Shown piece by piece: positions 2,425-28,431 of a DNA stretch of 28,431 nt. The position numbers and the translations under genes were made by a program. How positions within the stretch are numbered: the stretch's first letter is position 1; every line of letters begins with the position of its first letter. The stretch lies in IMG/VR virus record IMGVR_UViG_3300033571_010163, positions 1 through 28,431 of that record; one strand, written 5' to 3'. Under the pieces are notes generated by a model. That model did no database searches and was not told where the DNA came from. It worked only from the letters and a program-made list of their open reading frames with translations. This stretch comes from a virus.

Positions 2425-3297
2425 TTATTCTTTATTCTTTCTTATTTGAGATGCTAAATCTTTTACCAGTTTTATCAAATGTGCATCTTTTACAGCAGGA
2501 GTTTCAACAATAACTTGTATTATAAGATCTCCCTTTACATTATTAAATTTAAGACTTGGAAAACCTAATCCTCTACAAGCAAATTTTTGTCCATTTTGTG
2601 TTCCGGGACTAATATGAAATTCAACTTCTTTATTGTCGATATTTTTTATAGGTTTTTTACAACCGAGCATAGCATCAAATATATCAATATTAATTTTTGT
2701 AATTAAGTGTATGTCTTCTCTACTGAAGTTTCTATCTTTATCAACATCGATATATATTATTAAATCACCTCTAGGTAATTCTGAAATGCTATCATCTCCC
2801 ATTCCCCCCATTTTCATTTGTTGTCCAGCAGCTATTCCTGGCGGAATAGTTATTTCTAATGTTTGATTTTTTCCACTTGGTAACGGATAATCGATAGTCA
2901 TTGTTTTTCCTAGATAACTATCTTTTAGACTTATCTTAACTTTTATCTGCAAGTCACTGTTTTTAGGTTGAGGTCTATTTCCTCTAAATCCGAACCCAAA
3001 CTGTGTAAAAATGTCTTCAAAAGGACTACCAAAAGGATCGCCACTTTGGAACGGATGTCCACTGTGAAATTCATGAAATCCGTTTGGAAACGGATTACCC
3101 CGTTGGCCACCGCCGTGATCGTAAAATTCTTTTTTATCAGGATTGATTAAGTTTTCGTATGCTTCTGTGATAGTTTGAAACTTTTTCTGATCACCACCTC
3201 GATCGGGGTGATGCTTCATAGCAAGTTTGCGATATGCTGCTTTGATTTCTTCTGGTGTCGCAGATTTTCCTACGCCTAATGTATCATAATAATTCAT
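2425..3297 (-). CDS. dnaJ: DnaJ/CbpA-like J-domain co-chaperone
   Basis: Hsp40 co-chaperone expected to deliver clients to host DnaK (Hsp70) and stimulate its ATPase. The protein has 290 residues. The N-terminal J-domain (about 1-65) has the essential HPD at 30-32. A Gly/Phe-rich linker follows (about 62-110, with repeated GNPFPNG- and GDPFGSP-like segments), then two beta-rich client-binding domains (about 115-290). The Cys-rich zinc finger of canonical DnaJ is absent, so this is a class B (CbpA-like) protein. It is the first of a dnaJ-def-clpA unit. A late-type octamer AATAAATA lies about 32 bases upstream at 3329-3336, overlapping the stop of the preceding gene, which suggests late expression. 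The Shine-Dalgarno is weak (AGGGA, far from the ATG). Confidence 0.95.
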   Translation of the reverse strand: MNYYDTLGVGKSATPEEIKAAYRKLAMKHHPDRGGDQKKFQTITEAYENLINPDKKEFYDHGGGQRGNPFPNGFHEFHSGHPFQSGDPFGSPFEDIFTQFGFGFRGNRPQPKNSDLQIKVKISLKDSYLGKTMTIDYPLPSGKNQTLEITIPPGIAAGQQMKMGGMGDDSISELPRGDLIIYIDVDKDRNFSREDIHLITKINIDIFDAMLGCKKPIKNIDNKEVEFHISPGTQNGQKFACRGLGFPSLKFNNVKGDLIIQVIVETPAVKDAHLIKLVKDLASQIRKNKE

Positions 3298-7690: not shown

Positions 7691-8125
7691 TTAGAGATCG
7701 CCTTCCTTACGGTTCTCACTATAGAAAGCATCAAATTGTCCACCTGGATACCTTGCTTCAAGTTTGCGAACATTCTCTGCAATGACATCGTTTGGATCAA
7801 GACGTAGCGCATTACAAGCATTAATCCAATACCACATAATGTCACCGAGTTCTCGCTTCATATGAAACAGTGTATCTTCATTAAGTGGTTTACCTTGAAA
7901 AAATATTTTCTTTGGAATTTCACAAAATTCGCCGCATTCTGCTGCCATTCCGATAGCCGCAGTTAACACTAACGGAACATTTATATCAGGACCGTGAACA
8001 CCATCTCCGATATAATTTCCATCAACTTCATCTAGTCGATTCATAAAGGTAGTAAGGTCTTTACTTTCTTTACTAGTAACAGTTTCAACAAAATCTTTAT
8101 ATTTGTTAAGATCAATATTTTTCAT
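7691..8125 (-). CDS. mazG: MazG-like nucleotide pyrophosphohydrolase
   Basis: An all-alpha NTP pyrophosphohydrolase. Phage MazG enzymes hydrolyse (d)NTPs to monophosphates and have been proposed to alter (p)ppGpp or recycle nucleotides in infected cells. The protein has 144 residues, a single-domain phage-type length. The metal-binding signature is visible: E63xxE66 in AAECGEF and E92xxD95 in RELGDIMWYW. Its first 14 bases overlap the end of the adenylate-forming enzyme gene, and its stop abuts the small membrane ORF. It is part of the compact minus-strand cluster that ends with gp44. Confidence 0.92.
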   Translation of the reverse strand: MKNIDLNKYKDFVETVTSKESKDLTTFMNRLDEVDGNYIGDGVHGPDINVPLVLTAAIGMAAECGEFCEIPKKIFFQGKPLNEDTLFHMKRELGDIMWYWINACNALRLDPNDVIAENVRKLEARYPGGQFDAFYSENRKEGDL

Positions 8126-9575
8126 TATTCATATGCCTTATATGTTTTAGTAATCTTTCTCTATCTGGTTTAATACCAGTAACAAAATCATGTATATTTT
8201 CGATATAAATTATATCATTTAGCTCTATTTGGTTGTTGTAAAACATTCGGACATCGTCCTTGATTTTATTAGAAAAAGAAAGCATTTCTAATTTATCTGT
8301 TACAATATACAGTTTTTTATATATTTCGTCAACTAATACTATCTGATTAACAAACTCAATATTTTCAAAATATTTACTAGCCATACCTCTAATCACAAAT
8401 AAATTAATTTCGATATCATTTAGCCTATATGCTTTTTTCTTTCCCTCAAAAATAAAACCTTCTTCGGTATCTCTTAATGAATCTTCAGTATTGATTGTTA
8501 CGCCATATGTTGGAATCGTTACGTTTAAAGTTTCATTTATAATCTTAATATCATGAAATCCTTCTACAGGTTTTCCTAACAAATATGGATTAAAGTTTTC
8601 AGTATTTTTATCAATAAAAGGTAAAAATAGAGGTCCCGATGTTTCACTACACCCAAATATACTTACAATTTTTTTTAATTTTCCTGTTCTAACAGCATTT
8701 AACCATTTAGGATTTATAAATGAAAGAACAAAGATTGTTAACTCTGGACATCCTAATTCTGAATTTTCAATAGCTGAAATCATATAATCTGTACAATGAT
8801 CAAAAGGGCTTTGAACTTTAGTAATTTTATTTCTTTGACAAAAATTTATAAAATTTTTGTAATTTTCGTCTGTGAATGATGTAACTTCAAAATTTTTCAC
8901 TCCAAAGTAGTGCCATTTACATTTATATAATGATGGTAAAAAGAATATACCCAATGATGAACCATGATTAAATGTTACTAGATGTAATATACGATCTTCT
9001 TCGGTAAATTCTAAAGGTTCCCAATTATATGAACATAATTCATAAAAGAATTCGTGAGAATGGTTTATTAGTTTTGGAGTGCCTGTACTTCCGCTACTTG
9101 TACATAATAGGCAAGTATCTGTTGGTGTAGAGTAGATCTTCTTAACATTTTCTTCATATTTTTCATCAAGAGAAAAATTATATCCTATTCTTTTAACTTC
9201 CACAGATTGTTTAGAATTTTTGGTATAATACTCTCTTAAGTCCGGGAAAAGTTTTTCAGAAAATCGATCAAGAAAAACAAAATCTAAAGGAAAATAAATT
9301 GTAAATTTTGGTTGTCTAGCATCTTCGCGATTATTAGGTTTTATTAATATTGTTAATTTTAATCCTAATTCAAAAGATGCAAATAGTATAGCAATATAAG
9401 AAATATCCATATGAGTTACTGCAAACCCTATTTTATCTCCTGGACTAGCATTTTTGTCTATTAATATTTTTTTCCAATAATCTATAACATGAAAAAGGTA
9501 TTCGCGAGATATTCCTCTCTCTTCTGTGCAAAAATGAGCATTTTTATTAATCCATTCCCTAGATATGATTTTCAT
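8112..9575 (-). CDS. ANL-family adenylate-forming enzyme (acyl-CoA synthetase/ligase-like)
   Basis: ANL enzymes activate a carboxylate with ATP to an acyl-adenylate and then pass it to CoA, a carrier protein or another acceptor. The protein has 487 residues, slightly shorter than the usual 500-600 but complete at both ends. Motifs in order: an N-terminal region of the GDKIGFAVTHMDISY type, A3 phosphate loop TSSGSTGTPK near 155-165, A5-like FGCSETSG near 307-315, an A7/A8-like region TEDSLRD followed by FIFEGKKKAYRLND, and an A10-like TGIKPDRERL near 464-474 that keeps the catalytic Lys. Catalysis therefore looks possible. Its ATG overlaps the groES stop by ATGA and its end overlaps mazG by 14 bases. 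No acyl carrier protein or CoA-pathway gene is seen, so the substrate is unknown. This is an unusual gene for a T4-like phage and probably host-derived (inference). Confidence 0.88.
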   Translation of the reverse strand: MKIISREWINKNAHFCTEERGISREYLFHVIDYWKKILIDKNASPGDKIGFAVTHMDISYIAILFASFELGLKLTILIKPNNREDARQPKFTIYFPLDFVFLDRFSEKLFPDLREYYTKNSKQSVEVKRIGYNFSLDEKYEENVKKIYSTPTDTCLLCTSSGSTGTPKLINHSHEFFYELCSYNWEPLEFTEEDRILHLVTFNHGSSLGIFFLPSLYKCKWHYFGVKNFEVTSFTDENYKNFINFCQRNKITKVQSPFDHCTDYMISAIENSELGCPELTIFVLSFINPKWLNAVRTGKLKKIVSIFGCSETSGPLFLPFIDKNTENFNPYLLGKPVEGFHDIKIINETLNVTIPTYGVTINTEDSLRDTEEGFIFEGKKKAYRLNDIEINLFVIRGMASKYFENIEFVNQIVLVDEIYKKLYIVTDKLEMLSFSNKIKDDVRMFYNNQIELNDIIYIENIHDFVTGIKPDRERLLKHIRHMNNEKY

Positions 9576-25024: not shown

Positions 25025-25351
25025 TTATACTGCAAAACTAGTGCCGCATCCGCAGCTTGAAATAGCATTTGGGTTTTCGAAAACAAAATTACTTCCAAAA
25101 ATTTCTTTTTTATAGTCTAATTTTGTACCTAAAACGTATATTAAACTCATACCGTCAATAACAAATTTTCTTTCATTTATATGAAAAACTTCATCATTTT
25201 CCTCTAATTCAGTTTCATTATTAAGAAACGCCCAATCATAAGTAAATCCAGCGCAGCCGCCACCTTTAACAGATAGTTTAACGCCCCATTTATTATTATT
25301 TTCGCATAGCTCTCTTATTTGATTTTTAGCAGAATCTGTAATAGAAATCAT
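25025..25351 (-). CDS. A-type Fe-S carrier (IscA/SufA/ErpA, HesB family)
   Basis: A-type carriers hold or pass iron-sulfur clusters or iron to target proteins in the cytosol. At 108 residues it is of normal length. The three conserved cysteines are present: Cys33 in GGGCAGF and Cys100/Cys102 in SCGCGT. The core pattern KLSVKGGGCAGFTYDW and the SSCGCGTSF tail are typical. TAGGA lies 6 bases before the ATG. Two late-type octamers are upstream at 25372-25379 and 25382-25389. Only 14 bases separate it from the giant fibre gene, so the two appear co-transcribed. Delivery of a cluster to a phage protein, possibly a virion component, is an inference. IscA, SufA and ErpA cannot be separated from sequence alone. 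Confidence 0.93.
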   Translation of the reverse strand: MISITDSAKNQIRELCENNNKWGVKLSVKGGGCAGFTYDWAFLNNETELEENDEVFHINERKFVIDGMSLIYVLGTKLDYKKEIFGSNFVFENPNAISSCGCGTSFAV

Positions 25352-25420: not shown

Positions 25421-25711
25421 ATGTTTGGATGGTTAAAGAGTTTATTTGGAAGTGAAACAGCACAAGAAATAGTTGTGCCCCCGCTACCAAAAGTAAAAAA
25501 AGTTGTTAAAAAGGTTACAAAACCAACTGTTAAAGAAGTTTCTAAAAAACTAGCTTTAAAAACAAAGGTTAATAAGACACCTAGAAAGCAGAAAGAAACA
25601 GTTACTCCGATAGAGCCCGTTTTTTCATCTGATAATACGGTTGTAGAGTCTGGAATAGTAGAAGTTAAGTTAAAGAAAAAAGGTGGTCGTCCAAAGAAGA
25701 GTAATATTTAA
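25421..25711 (+). CDS. Basic Lys-rich protein with AT-hook-like tail, 96 aa
   Basis: A very basic small protein. Residues about 24-58 are a Lys/Val/Thr/Pro-rich stretch (PKVKKVVKKVTKPTVKEVSK), which is low-complexity and similar in style to histone-H1-like proteins. The C-terminus KKKGGRPKKSNI holds the GRP core of an AT-hook flanked by Lys, a minor-groove AT-DNA binding motif. The N-terminus MFGWLKSLFG is amphipathic and could touch membrane or another protein. A good AAGGAG and a late-type promoter precede it. Its stop overlaps the convergent methyltransferase stop (25708-25711). A DNA-condensing or packaging-associated role in an AT-rich phage is an inference; no named family is recognised. 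Confidence 0.82.
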   Translation: MFGWLKSLFGSETAQEIVVPPLPKVKKVVKKVTKPTVKEVSKKLALKTKVNKTPRKQKETVTPIEPVFSSDNTVVESGIVEVKLKKKGGRPKKSNI

Positions 25712-26658
25712 TTATTGTTTTCTTCAAAAAAATTTGATATATCTCTAGGGGATGATTTAGTCTTTTTATGATTAGGTATTTCTCCTCTTTCTTTTAGACT
25801 TTTATCTTTCCCTTCTAGAGCTAATTTGGCATCTAATGCAGCTGAAAAATCTTTCATGATTTCGTTTTGTATTCTATCTTCAGCTATCTTACAATAGTCG
25901 GCACTTAAATCTATTCCTAGATATCTACGTCCAGTTCTTTCAGCAACGAATGTAGTTGTTCCTGCACCATTAAATGGATCTAATATAACATCGTTTTGAA
26001 ACGAAAAAAGTTTTAATGCTCGGTAGGCTAATTCTACAGGAAACATTGCAGGGTGTCCGTATGTTTTCATATTTCTTTCAGGAGCAATATTCCATTTAGC
26101 GTCACACCAAGTTTTAAATTCATTACCGGTTATATCAGCTAATTTAGAATCTCCTTTATGTAGAATCTCTCCTTTACAAAATACTTCCAGAAATTCCCAA
26201 GTATATTTTAGATAAGGCCCGCTCGGACTCTTCCAAGAGCCCCATGCGGTGTAAGCACAATTACGATGATTCTTTTCCCACAATATTTCAGCCTTCCATA
26301 TAAGCCCTCTATCTAAAAGACCCTTGCTGATTATATGATGACTAGGAATATACTCGCTGAATAATGGTTGTGTGTTTATTATTATTCTTCCACCATGTTT
26401 TGTAACTCTAATACATTCGTCGAAGATTTCCCAAAGCATTTCAAAGTATTTAGGCCAATCGGTTTTATCATCATGTGTGTCATATCCCATACCAAAGTTA
26501 TATGGCGGGCTTGTAAAAACTAAATCTACACAATTATCAGGAAGATTTTTTAATATTTTTAGACTATTATCGTTAATGATTTTATTCTCATAATTCTTTG
26601 GAAAAATATTATTTGTTTTAGAAAAATCTTTAGTGTATGCCTTATATCCCTCTGCCAT
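25708..26658 (-). CDS. Beta-class DNA methyltransferase, probably N4-cytosine
   Basis: Transfers a methyl group from S-adenosylmethionine to an exocyclic amino group in DNA. It has 316 residues. The catalytic motif IV TSPPY (49-53, in VDLVFTSPPYNFG) precedes the SAM-binding motif I DPFNGAGTT (about 227-235), giving the beta-class order. An SPPY core is typical of N4-methylcytosine enzymes while DPPY is typical of N6-adenine, so m4C is favoured but not certain. The C-terminal 50 residues are charged and less ordered. AAGGA precedes the ATG. A sigma70-like promoter TTGACT-17-TATAGT lies directly upstream. The nuclease-like gene upstream on the same strand suggests a restriction-modification pair; the recognition sequence is unknown. 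Confidence 0.93.
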   Translation of the reverse strand: MAEGYKAYTKDFSKTNNIFPKNYENKIINDNSLKILKNLPDNCVDLVFTSPPYNFGMGYDTHDDKTDWPKYFEMLWEIFDECIRVTKHGGRIIINTQPLFSEYIPSHHIISKGLLDRGLIWKAEILWEKNHRNCAYTAWGSWKSPSGPYLKYTWEFLEVFCKGEILHKGDSKLADITGNEFKTWCDAKWNIAPERNMKTYGHPAMFPVELAYRALKLFSFQNDVILDPFNGAGTTTFVAERTGRRYLGIDLSADYCKIAEDRIQNEIMKDFSAALDAKLALEGKDKSLKERGEIPNHKKTKSSPRDISNFFEENNN

Positions 26659-26677
26659 AATTGTTCCTTAAAAATAT

Positions 26678-26706
26678 ACTATAATACAAATTTCATATAA
26701 AGTCAA
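26678..26706 (-). promoter_or_regulatory. Sigma70-type promoter of the methyltransferase
   Basis: Minus strand: -35 TTGACT (26701-26706), an exact 17-base spacer, -10 TATAGT (26678-26683). Each box differs from consensus at one base. The TGA stop of the nuclease gene (26703-26705) lies within the -35 box. The methyltransferase can thus be expressed on its own, early, by host polymerase. Confidence 0.7.
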
Positions 26707-27563
26707 AAGGTATCTGAAATATAAAAGCCGTTAGAATCTATAATACTTCTTAATTTTAGTCCTTTTGACTCTGCTTTTGTTATGTTTAAAAAGTCATCAG
26801 GAGTTTTATTTGAAAGATAATTAACACAGAGGTCCTCAACCATTTTAAATCTTTGATAGTTTAATGCTGGGTATTGAACTATTTTTTTATTATTTCCTCT
26901 CTGTATAACTATTGCCGATCCTTCTTCCCAAACAGCGTTAACATCAGCATCTGTAGATACTGAAAAATTATTATCAGTAATAGCAAAACAACGAATATTA
27001 GGATTCATTTTTCTAAAATCGCTAAAAATACCTCTGACATTTTTTGTAGTTGTTTTACAGAAATGTCCTCCCTTAACTTCTCCAACAATAATAGGGAAGA
27101 TATATCTTTGAAAGGAATTTTTAGAAATAATACCTAGTCCAATATCAACATCTTTATTTTCTGGATATCCTTTAGATGGAAAGTATTGCACAACTTCATC
27201 GTCTTGAAGATTTACTAATTCTATATCTGGGTATTCTGCCCAAACTTTCTCCATTTTATTTTTAATTCTTTCAAAAACAGGAAACCATAATTGTTCCAAC
27301 CAGCTAGGTCCCACTTTAATTTTAGCATAAGCATAGATGTTTTCTTTATCTCCTTTATGAGATTGTTCCCAATAAAATTGATCATAAGGTGTAATAGACG
27401 TTATGTAACTACTATAGTCACTATTAGAAACTAAATCAAGTTGTGCCAGTTCAACTGTTGGATAAATTTTAAGTGCTTGCTCAACAAGTAAAAAATCTTT
27501 TTCTTTTCTTTCATATCCAGTGTTGGTATTCTTAACTAGATTAATATGTCGATGTAGATTCAT
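26703..27563 (-). CDS. Putative PD-(D/E)XK restriction endonuclease, 286 aa
   Basis: Probably the nuclease partner of the adjacent methyltransferase. It has 286 residues, typical for a type II restriction enzyme. A candidate active site of the PD-(D/E)XK fold is visible: Asp140 in KDVDIGLG, then about 20 residues later Glu162-Val-Lys164 in IIVGEVKGGHF, with an upstream Glu90 in a SWLEQLWFP helix. Core strands (RYIFPIIVGEVK and IRCFAITDNN) fit the fold. No Walker or helicase motif is present, so it is not a type I or III subunit. AGGA precedes the ATG, and a promoter-like TTGACA with AT-rich -10 candidates lies upstream. A named family is not recognised; a non-restriction phage nuclease remains possible. 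Confidence 0.68.
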   Translation of the reverse strand: MNLHRHINLVKNTNTGYERKEKDFLLVEQALKIYPTVELAQLDLVSNSDYSSYITSITPYDQFYWEQSHKGDKENIYAYAKIKVGPSWLEQLWFPVFERIKNKMEKVWAEYPDIELVNLQDDEVVQYFPSKGYPENKDVDIGLGIISKNSFQRYIFPIIVGEVKGGHFCKTTTKNVRGIFSDFRKMNPNIRCFAITDNNFSVSTDADVNAVWEEGSAIVIQRGNNKKIVQYPALNYQRFKMVEDLCVNYLSNKTPDDFLNITKAESKGLKLRSIIDSNGFYISDTF

Positions 27564-27584: not shown

Positions 27585-27614
27585 ATATAATAACATTTTT
27601 ATAAGATATGTCAA
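27585..27614 (-). promoter_or_regulatory. Possible sigma70-type promoter of the nuclease gene
   Basis: The minus strand has a perfect -35 TTGACA (27609-27614), which contains the TGA stop of the UV endonuclease gene (27611-27613). The -10 is uncertain: TTATAT (27585-27590) at an 18-base spacing, or TATAAT (27582-27587) at 21 bases, which is long. Confidence 0.45.
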
Positions 27615-28431
27615 CTAATAGATTTAGCTTTTTCGAATAAAGCAAAACTGGCTAGATTTTTAGCCTTGCTCTCACAACAAATATCAAAATTAGGCCAAAA
27701 TCCTAAAGCCCATTCGTTAGCAGCATCGTTGTAATAGTAATCAGAATGTGCTCTTAATTTCTGTTTTTTGTATCCATTCTCTAATAGTTCATTGAGATCT
27801 AAAAGAGTAACATTGTTACGAACAATGTTCTCATGTAAGTGTTCTTCGCGACTCAATGAATAATGCATAGTTGGACGCACACCGCGCCAGCTATCTATGA
27901 CACGTTTAACGCGATCATCATTAGGATTGATATACTCACCAGTCTTAACCCAGTGGTGATGTATGTCCATAACAATAGCACAATGTTTCTCTAATGATAG
28001 AACATCATCTAATCCGAAAGTAATTTCTTCGTTCTCTATGGTAATAAGGTTACGAGCTTCAGTGCTAAGATGGGGGAGAATATTAATAATGCCAGCAGCA
28101 CCACGCCTACCAGCGATATGCACATTAATTTTAAAACCTTCATCGTGGAAGTATTTACCGTAACCCATCCAACGGGCCATATCTACATGGTACTCGAATT
28201 CTTCTATTGAGCGCCTGACAACATCATCATTGCTACTCGCCAAAACACAAAATTGACCTGGATGAAAACTAATACGAACGCCGAGCGCACGAGCCAGTTC
28301 GCCCACCTCGGCAAAATGTTTCTCCGCGTAAGAGCGAGTATCGTTCTGCTGCCAAAAATAACTAAAACTAGGCTCAGTATAGACAGGGAGGATGTCGCTA
28401 GATAACCGTACCATACGCAACTGTTCATTTA
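27611..28431 (-). CDS. uvsE: UV-damage endonuclease, UvsE/UVDE family (5' end beyond window)
   Basis: Nicks DNA 5' to UV photoproducts and some other lesions, starting excision repair. The frame is open through the right edge: codons for N-E-Q lie upstream of the TTG at 28420, and the visible sequence begins in the family's RLSSDILP region, normally about residue 70-80. The gene is therefore cut by the window and the TTG is not the true start. Metal-ligand motifs of the TIM-barrel fold are all visible in order: FHPGQF, NVHIAG, ITIENEE, MDIHHHW, MHYS and CESKAK. The stop TGA sits inside the -35 box of the next gene. Such enzymes occur in several sunlit-water phages, which fits the marine setting. 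Confidence 0.94.
   Translation of the reverse strand, partial: NEQLRMVRLSSDILPVYTEPSFSYFWQQNDTRSYAEKHFAEVGELARALGVRISFHPGQFCVLASSNDDVVRRSIEEFEYHVDMARWMGYGKYFHDEGFKINVHIAGRRGAAGIINILPHLSTEARNLITIENEEITFGLDDVLSLEKHCAIVMDIHHHWVKTGEYINPNDDRVKRVIDSWRGVRPTMHYSLSREEHLHENIVRNNVTLLDLNELLENGYKKQKLRAHSDYYYNDAANEWALGFWPNFDICCESKAKNLASFALFEKAKSIS

Follow-up and report, generated by a model that had tools for sequence, protein, structure and literature searches.

A phage gene pair encoding a BbvCI-like nuclease and a methyltransferase, and depletion of CTNAG in phages that carry related nucleases

The window analysed here is the whole stretch of 28,431 nucleotides of the virus record IMGVR_UViG_3300033571_010163. 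Two genes lie next to each other on its minus strand, both with an ATG start: R (26703..27563), encoding a PD-(D/E)XK nuclease of 286 amino acids, and M (25708..26658), encoding a beta-class amino-methyltransferase of 316 amino acids that is predicted to act on N4 of cytosine. The intergenic gap is 44 bases long (26659-26702), so that the coordinates, shared strand and spacing given by a first-pass annotation of this DNA were correct. Just upstream of R is a gene for a UvdE-type UV endonuclease (27611-28429) that runs off the window, and a lysine-rich ORF of 96 amino acids on the plus strand (25421-25711), assigned to no family, shares four bases at its 3′ end with the end of M. Host-like genes elsewhere in the window encode a peptide deformylase (1883-2386), DnaJ (2425-3297), an AMP-binding enzyme (8112-9575) and an A-type iron-sulphur assembly protein (25025-25351).

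Sigma70-like promoters are found on the minus strand before R (27587..27614; TTGACA-16-TATTAT, 11 of 12 matches) and between R and M (26678..26706; TTGACT-17-TATAGT), in an AT-rich region where the total number of promoter-like sites is not above chance. Sequences comparable by eye occupy the R-M gaps of four other viral contigs (L008, L009, L010 and L012), with a weaker one in L023. Given the promoter in the gap and its counterparts in other pairs, M probably has its own transcription start.

A longer IMG/VR contig, 3300032298_001311 (G001, 128,772 bp), is identical to the window over the aligned 2.8 kb of the R-M region and includes additional stretches of it; its one PF01555 gene is M itself, and a DAHP/KDO8P synthase and a PTPS protein are among its further host-like genes. 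The clamp loader of this phage is 55% identical to that of Pseudomonas phage PA5oct, and the baseplate families match. A search for Gp23 in the 128.8-kb contig, run without a positive control, gave no match, and the earlier description of the phage as T4-like is unproven.

In M, motif IV (TSPPY, residues 49-53, 26500..26514 on the minus strand, invariant) precedes motif I (DPFNGAGTT, residues 227-235, 25954..25980 on the minus strand), which is the order of the beta class. The protein matches PF01555 (E 5.3e-38, 131.6 bits for a cut-off of 26.7) and the PADLOC type II methyltransferase family (E 5.8e-62), with 2zie and 8s9n as PDB matches. Motifs, order and family all agree with the beta-class assignment first made from the two motifs. 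The SPPY motif and the closest relatives suggest m4C as the predicted product. The methyltransferase class of Bpu10I systems probably differs from that of M.

R proved far more divergent. On its own it retrieved nothing from Pfam, NCBIfam, PHROGs, PADLOC families or PDB sequences, it gave no match to Pfam RE_Bpu10I (PF09549) at E<1, and tblastn of R and its homologues against phage and plasmid records gave no match either. The best PDB sequence matches of the R profile, MAT1 and putidaredoxin, were spurious. Profile-profile comparison linked R to the RE_Bpu10I nuclease cluster (E 2e-6) over a catalytic core of 68 residues only, where the ExK of R aligns with the ECK of RE_Bpu10I members. AlphaFold models were built from five sequences (pLDDT 72.2, pTM 0.78) and from seven (pLDDT 81.5, pTM 0.85), and the modelled structure has the alpha-beta-beta-beta-alpha-beta core expected of PD-(D/E)XK nucleases, with D140 within strand E135-147 and with E162 and K164 at and just past the end of strand E156-163. 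With both models, all seven PDB matches found by Foldseek at E<0.001 were BbvCI subunits, the match extending over the full length of R (E 9e-7, probability 1.00, TM about 0.55). A confident match to a non-nuclease family, which would have spoken against the first-pass annotation, was therefore not among the Foldseek results, as the confident matches are all restriction enzymes.

The catalytic residues lead to the same conclusion. K137, D138, D140, E162, K164, G166, H167 and C169 are invariant across seven R sequences; the codon of D140, in the KDVD motif, is at 27144..27146 and those of E162-V163-K164 at 27072..27080, both on the minus strand. The D...ExK core that had been read from the sequence thus belongs to a genuine PD-(D/E)XK nuclease, as judged by residues and model, and its three residues hold in all seven homologues. 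Their invariance despite an overall identity of 23-48% points to purifying selection on catalysis. The layout of R, KDVD140-X21-E162-V-K164, resembles that of BbvCI R1, E139-D140-X26-E167-V-K169 (PMC6326814). In contrast to the BbvCI/Bpu10I group, with which it shares 12-15% identity, R falls below the Pfam RE_Bpu10I model and has a conserved GHxC just past the ExK, and whereas BbvCI has two subunits, R is a single gene. The profile-profile and fold matches together make R a divergent relative of the BbvCI/Bpu10I enzymes; it is not filed as an RE_Bpu10I member because homology was detected by these two means only. From sequence comparison, it appears to be an undescribed, apparently new family of restriction enzymes.

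R lies directly upstream of M in five further viral contigs (L008, L009, L010, L012/L013 and L023), which argues that the arrangement is not due to chance, and the linked inheritance that the first-pass annotation had proposed to look for was indeed found. The surroundings of the pair vary among these contigs. Compared with the window, R is 23-48% identical across related contigs and M about 81-82%; other viral contigs hold M relatives of 72-85% identity. R is intact in six contigs carrying both genes, the window phage counted, and in G003 (L022, pieces L199-L201), a 45.8-kb fragment with an R homologue and no PF01555 methyltransferase, while L014 has M and no R. Overall, a PD-(D/E)XK nuclease with a cognate-looking methyltransferase supports the proposal of a complete type II restriction-modification (R-M) pair.

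Relatives of M that are 57-66% identical occur in many bacteria and archaea. Their neighbours include RE_Bpu10I nucleases at six loci, which match BbvCI by sequence (E 5e-31), and at 48 loci a cluster of 237-aa PADLOC type II nucleases (PDLC03499) that is related to RE_Bpu10I (E 3.9e-6). These loci resemble the window in having a close M relative and, for RE_Bpu10I, a nuclease related to R. They differ in gene order, since M usually comes first and the nuclease follows it, in some cases encoded on the other strand, and in that the kinship of the nuclease to R is detectable by sequence at the catalytic core only. A tree was inferred by a quick search and without bootstrap; in it, the window-type M proteins of viruses group in a clade of their own (SH-aLRT 99), and those of cyanophages lie on a separate long branch. 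This supported clade, together with a genome scan with R that found no bacterial relative, disfavours the suggestion of a captured host cassette, at least as a recent event.

Nor is a paired nuclease unusual in phages, as had been supposed. Within the M family, an MjaI-type nuclease precedes M at 43 viral loci, and a window-type nuclease is present at 20, several of the latter being repeat fetches of one contig. R-M pairs are already annotated in the cyanophages S-CAM3, S-H9-2, S-RIM32, Syn19 and ACG-2014j, so this kind of system is known in T4-like cyanophages. The MjaI-type pairs of S-CAM3, S-H9-2 and S-RIM32 are similar to the window pair in that the nuclease gene immediately precedes that of an M with 53-54% identity, but their nuclease is of the unrelated PF09568 family (CTAG), their genes overlap and their M proteins are those of the separate long branch.

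Candidate targets were drawn from the literature. BbvCI (CCTCAGC), Bpu10I (CCTNAGC), Bsu36I (CCTNAGG) and BlpI (GCTNAGC) all contain CTNAG within their sites (PMC6326814). According to an archaeal survey, one group of m4C methyltransferases acting on CTNAG is fixed in Methanoregula/Methanospirillum (PMC10609329), the lineage in which the M family adjoins RE_Bpu10I; this link to M is suggestive because AGCT and GTAC m4C methyltransferase groups also occur there (PMC10609329). A search with M of plasmids for MthZI gave matches of 25-33% only.

In the window phage, CTNAG occurs 115 times for 288 expected over 128.8 kb (0.40), and its four central-base versions are depleted about equally. The signal is moderate in this phage alone, since CTNAG ranks third in depletion, AGCT (0.52) and TGCA (0.63) having lower z-scores, and since bacterial loci average 0.65-0.70. 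Among related contigs with R, CTNAG observed/expected is 0.23 in G002, 0.06 in G005, 0.36 in G009, 0.53 in another and 0.51 in the R-only G003; G006, which has both genes, shows no depletion (1.04). PA5oct is at 0.86. CTAG had been considered as a target of R since the cyanophage relatives of M pair with MjaI-type nucleases, and was rejected as first choice because its frequency is close to normal, at 0.84 in the window phage and 0.97-1.06 in the larger relatives G002, G003 and G009. R probably targets CTNAG, as judged from its kinship to BbvCI/Bpu10I and from genome composition, and the partial loss of the site in the window phage would fit a nuclease with a partner methyltransferase.

A search of BFVD with the R model retrieved an unannotated 202-aa protein of cyanophage S-CAM1, assigned by its length to SXBG_00019 (NC_020837, L209:32715-33323). 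Similar unannotated lone Bpu10I-like nucleases are encoded by S-CAM3 (NC_031906 64085-64684) and by marine virus AG-345-P14 (MH319765 41370-41930); the S-CAM1 and S-CAM3 proteins match the Bpu10I-like profile, and tblastn located SXBG_00019-type nucleases in these three phages only. CTNAG is nearly absent from the carriers (observed/expected 0.01): 2 observed for 239 expected in S-CAM1, 1 for 119 in S-CAM3 and 1 for 96 in AG-345-P14. Eight other T4-like cyanophages, in which the profile found no such nuclease, have normal values (0.84-1.10). Among 64 split palindromes CTNAG alone clearly separates carriers from non-carriers, and this separation is unique to the carrier triple among the 165 possible triples of the 11 phages, in a comparison that arose while following the data, covers 50-100 kb per phage and is uncorrected for phylogeny, although S-CAM1 is not of the same genus as S-CAM3.

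CTAG in carriers of MjaI-type nucleases, whose enzyme is a known one, served as a positive control. It is depleted in all four carriers (S-CAM3 0.16, S-H9-2 0.19, S-RIM32 0.03 and S-SM2 0.00) and in none of the seven phages without such a nuclease (0.80-1.12), a pattern produced by one of 330 quadruples. In S-SM2 (NC_015279, L217:147-674) the MjaI-type nuclease is also alone: the genome has no PF01555 methyltransferase, and CTAG is found 0 times for 87 expected in the 50 kb examined. S-CAM1 likewise has no PF01555 methyltransferase. Two other features of composition were seen in these cyanophages, namely a depletion of both GANTC (0.49) and GTNAC (0.57) in S-RSM4 (L215), and an absence of CCGG in 10 of the 11 pieces examined.

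The explanation that we favour, with a probability of roughly 0.7, is that the phage encodes a functional type II R-M system in which R cleaves CTNAG sites that lack the modification, in the DNA of the host or of rivals, while M protects the phage. R would act as a homodimer-type PD-(D/E)XK nuclease of the BbvCI/Bpu10I superfamily, probably cutting the palindrome CTNAG, and M would probably form N4-methylcytosine within that site. Having its own putative promoter, M would methylate the DNA made during infection, so that virion DNA would enter the next cell protected; R would then attack unmethylated CTNAG in the chromosome of that host and in unmodified competing phages. Gene pair, nuclease fold, catalytic conservation, linked occurrence and a CTNAG depletion that tracks related nucleases are computed results, from which we infer cleavage by R, its exact target, m4C, timing and the destruction of host DNA as the purpose. 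That R destroys host or competing phage DNA, as first suggested, is still our best guess as to function, and the site imprint lends it indirect support. Counting against this explanation are the undepleted G006, the partial depletion in the window phage itself, the restriction of the profile match to the core, the failure of R to match Pfam RE_Bpu10I and the presence of R without M in G003; avoidance of CTNAG could also reflect host enzymes.

The same functional pair might instead be a selfish or superinfection-exclusion module, in which R spares the host and mainly cuts incoming DNA of competing phages, or in which the pair persists by post-segregational-type addiction. Mobility of R-M cassettes, the differing gene contexts of the pair and the far faster divergence of R than of M are in keeping with such a role, which we nevertheless consider rather unlikely: R would also cut the chromosomes of hosts that lack a CTNAG methyltransferase, so that sparing needs extra assumptions, and addiction cannot explain the lone nucleases of S-CAM1 and S-SM2, with their purged sites, because no PF01555 methyltransferase is present there. 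We give similarly low credence to a different target for the pair, such as CTAG, AGCT or a longer sequence containing CTNAG, with the CTNAG depletion of the window being background or host-driven. The lower z-scores of AGCT and TGCA, the CTAG-type partners of cyanophage M proteins and the normal value in G006 would all fit, but CTAG is close to expectation both in the window phage and in G002, G003 and G009, R is kin to BbvCI/Bpu10I and not to MjaI, and depletion is even over the four central bases. Orphan methyltransferases are common in phages and a related M without R exists in L014, so M could in principle be an orphan anti-restriction enzyme beside a degenerate R; the intact R genes of seven contigs, with catalytic residues invariant in spite of their divergence, make this very improbable.

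With somewhat less confidence than for the R-M system itself, we think it likely that aquatic myoviruses wield restriction-type nucleases against host or rival DNA, protecting themselves interchangeably by a partner methyltransferase or by near-complete loss of the site. If so, the window phage would represent the methyltransferase route, with partial site loss, and S-CAM1 (CTNAG) and S-SM2 (CTAG) the site-loss route, and a missing palindrome would reveal the specificity of a phage's own nuclease. Site avoidance in phage genomes is usually interpreted as evading host enzymes; our results suggest that it can also mark the phage's own nuclease. This would offer a cheap prediction of specificity for uncharacterised phage nucleases and evidence of the offensive use of restriction enzymes, and R would add to phages an undescribed enzyme family with a specific predicted target. 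The imprint is the most interesting outcome of this work and, like the R family, appears new; a limited literature search found no prior report of phage-encoded nucleases with purged sites, which does not prove novelty. By analogy, the closest functional precedent for the pair would be the R-M systems of chloroviruses, such as CviAI and CviAII of PBCV-1, said to protect viral DNA and to allow degradation of host DNA (PMC7248222, PMC12700378). Unlike the pair described here, CviAI and CviAII belong to a virus of eukaryotic algae, involve m6A at GATC and CATG, and have nucleases that are packaged in the virion.
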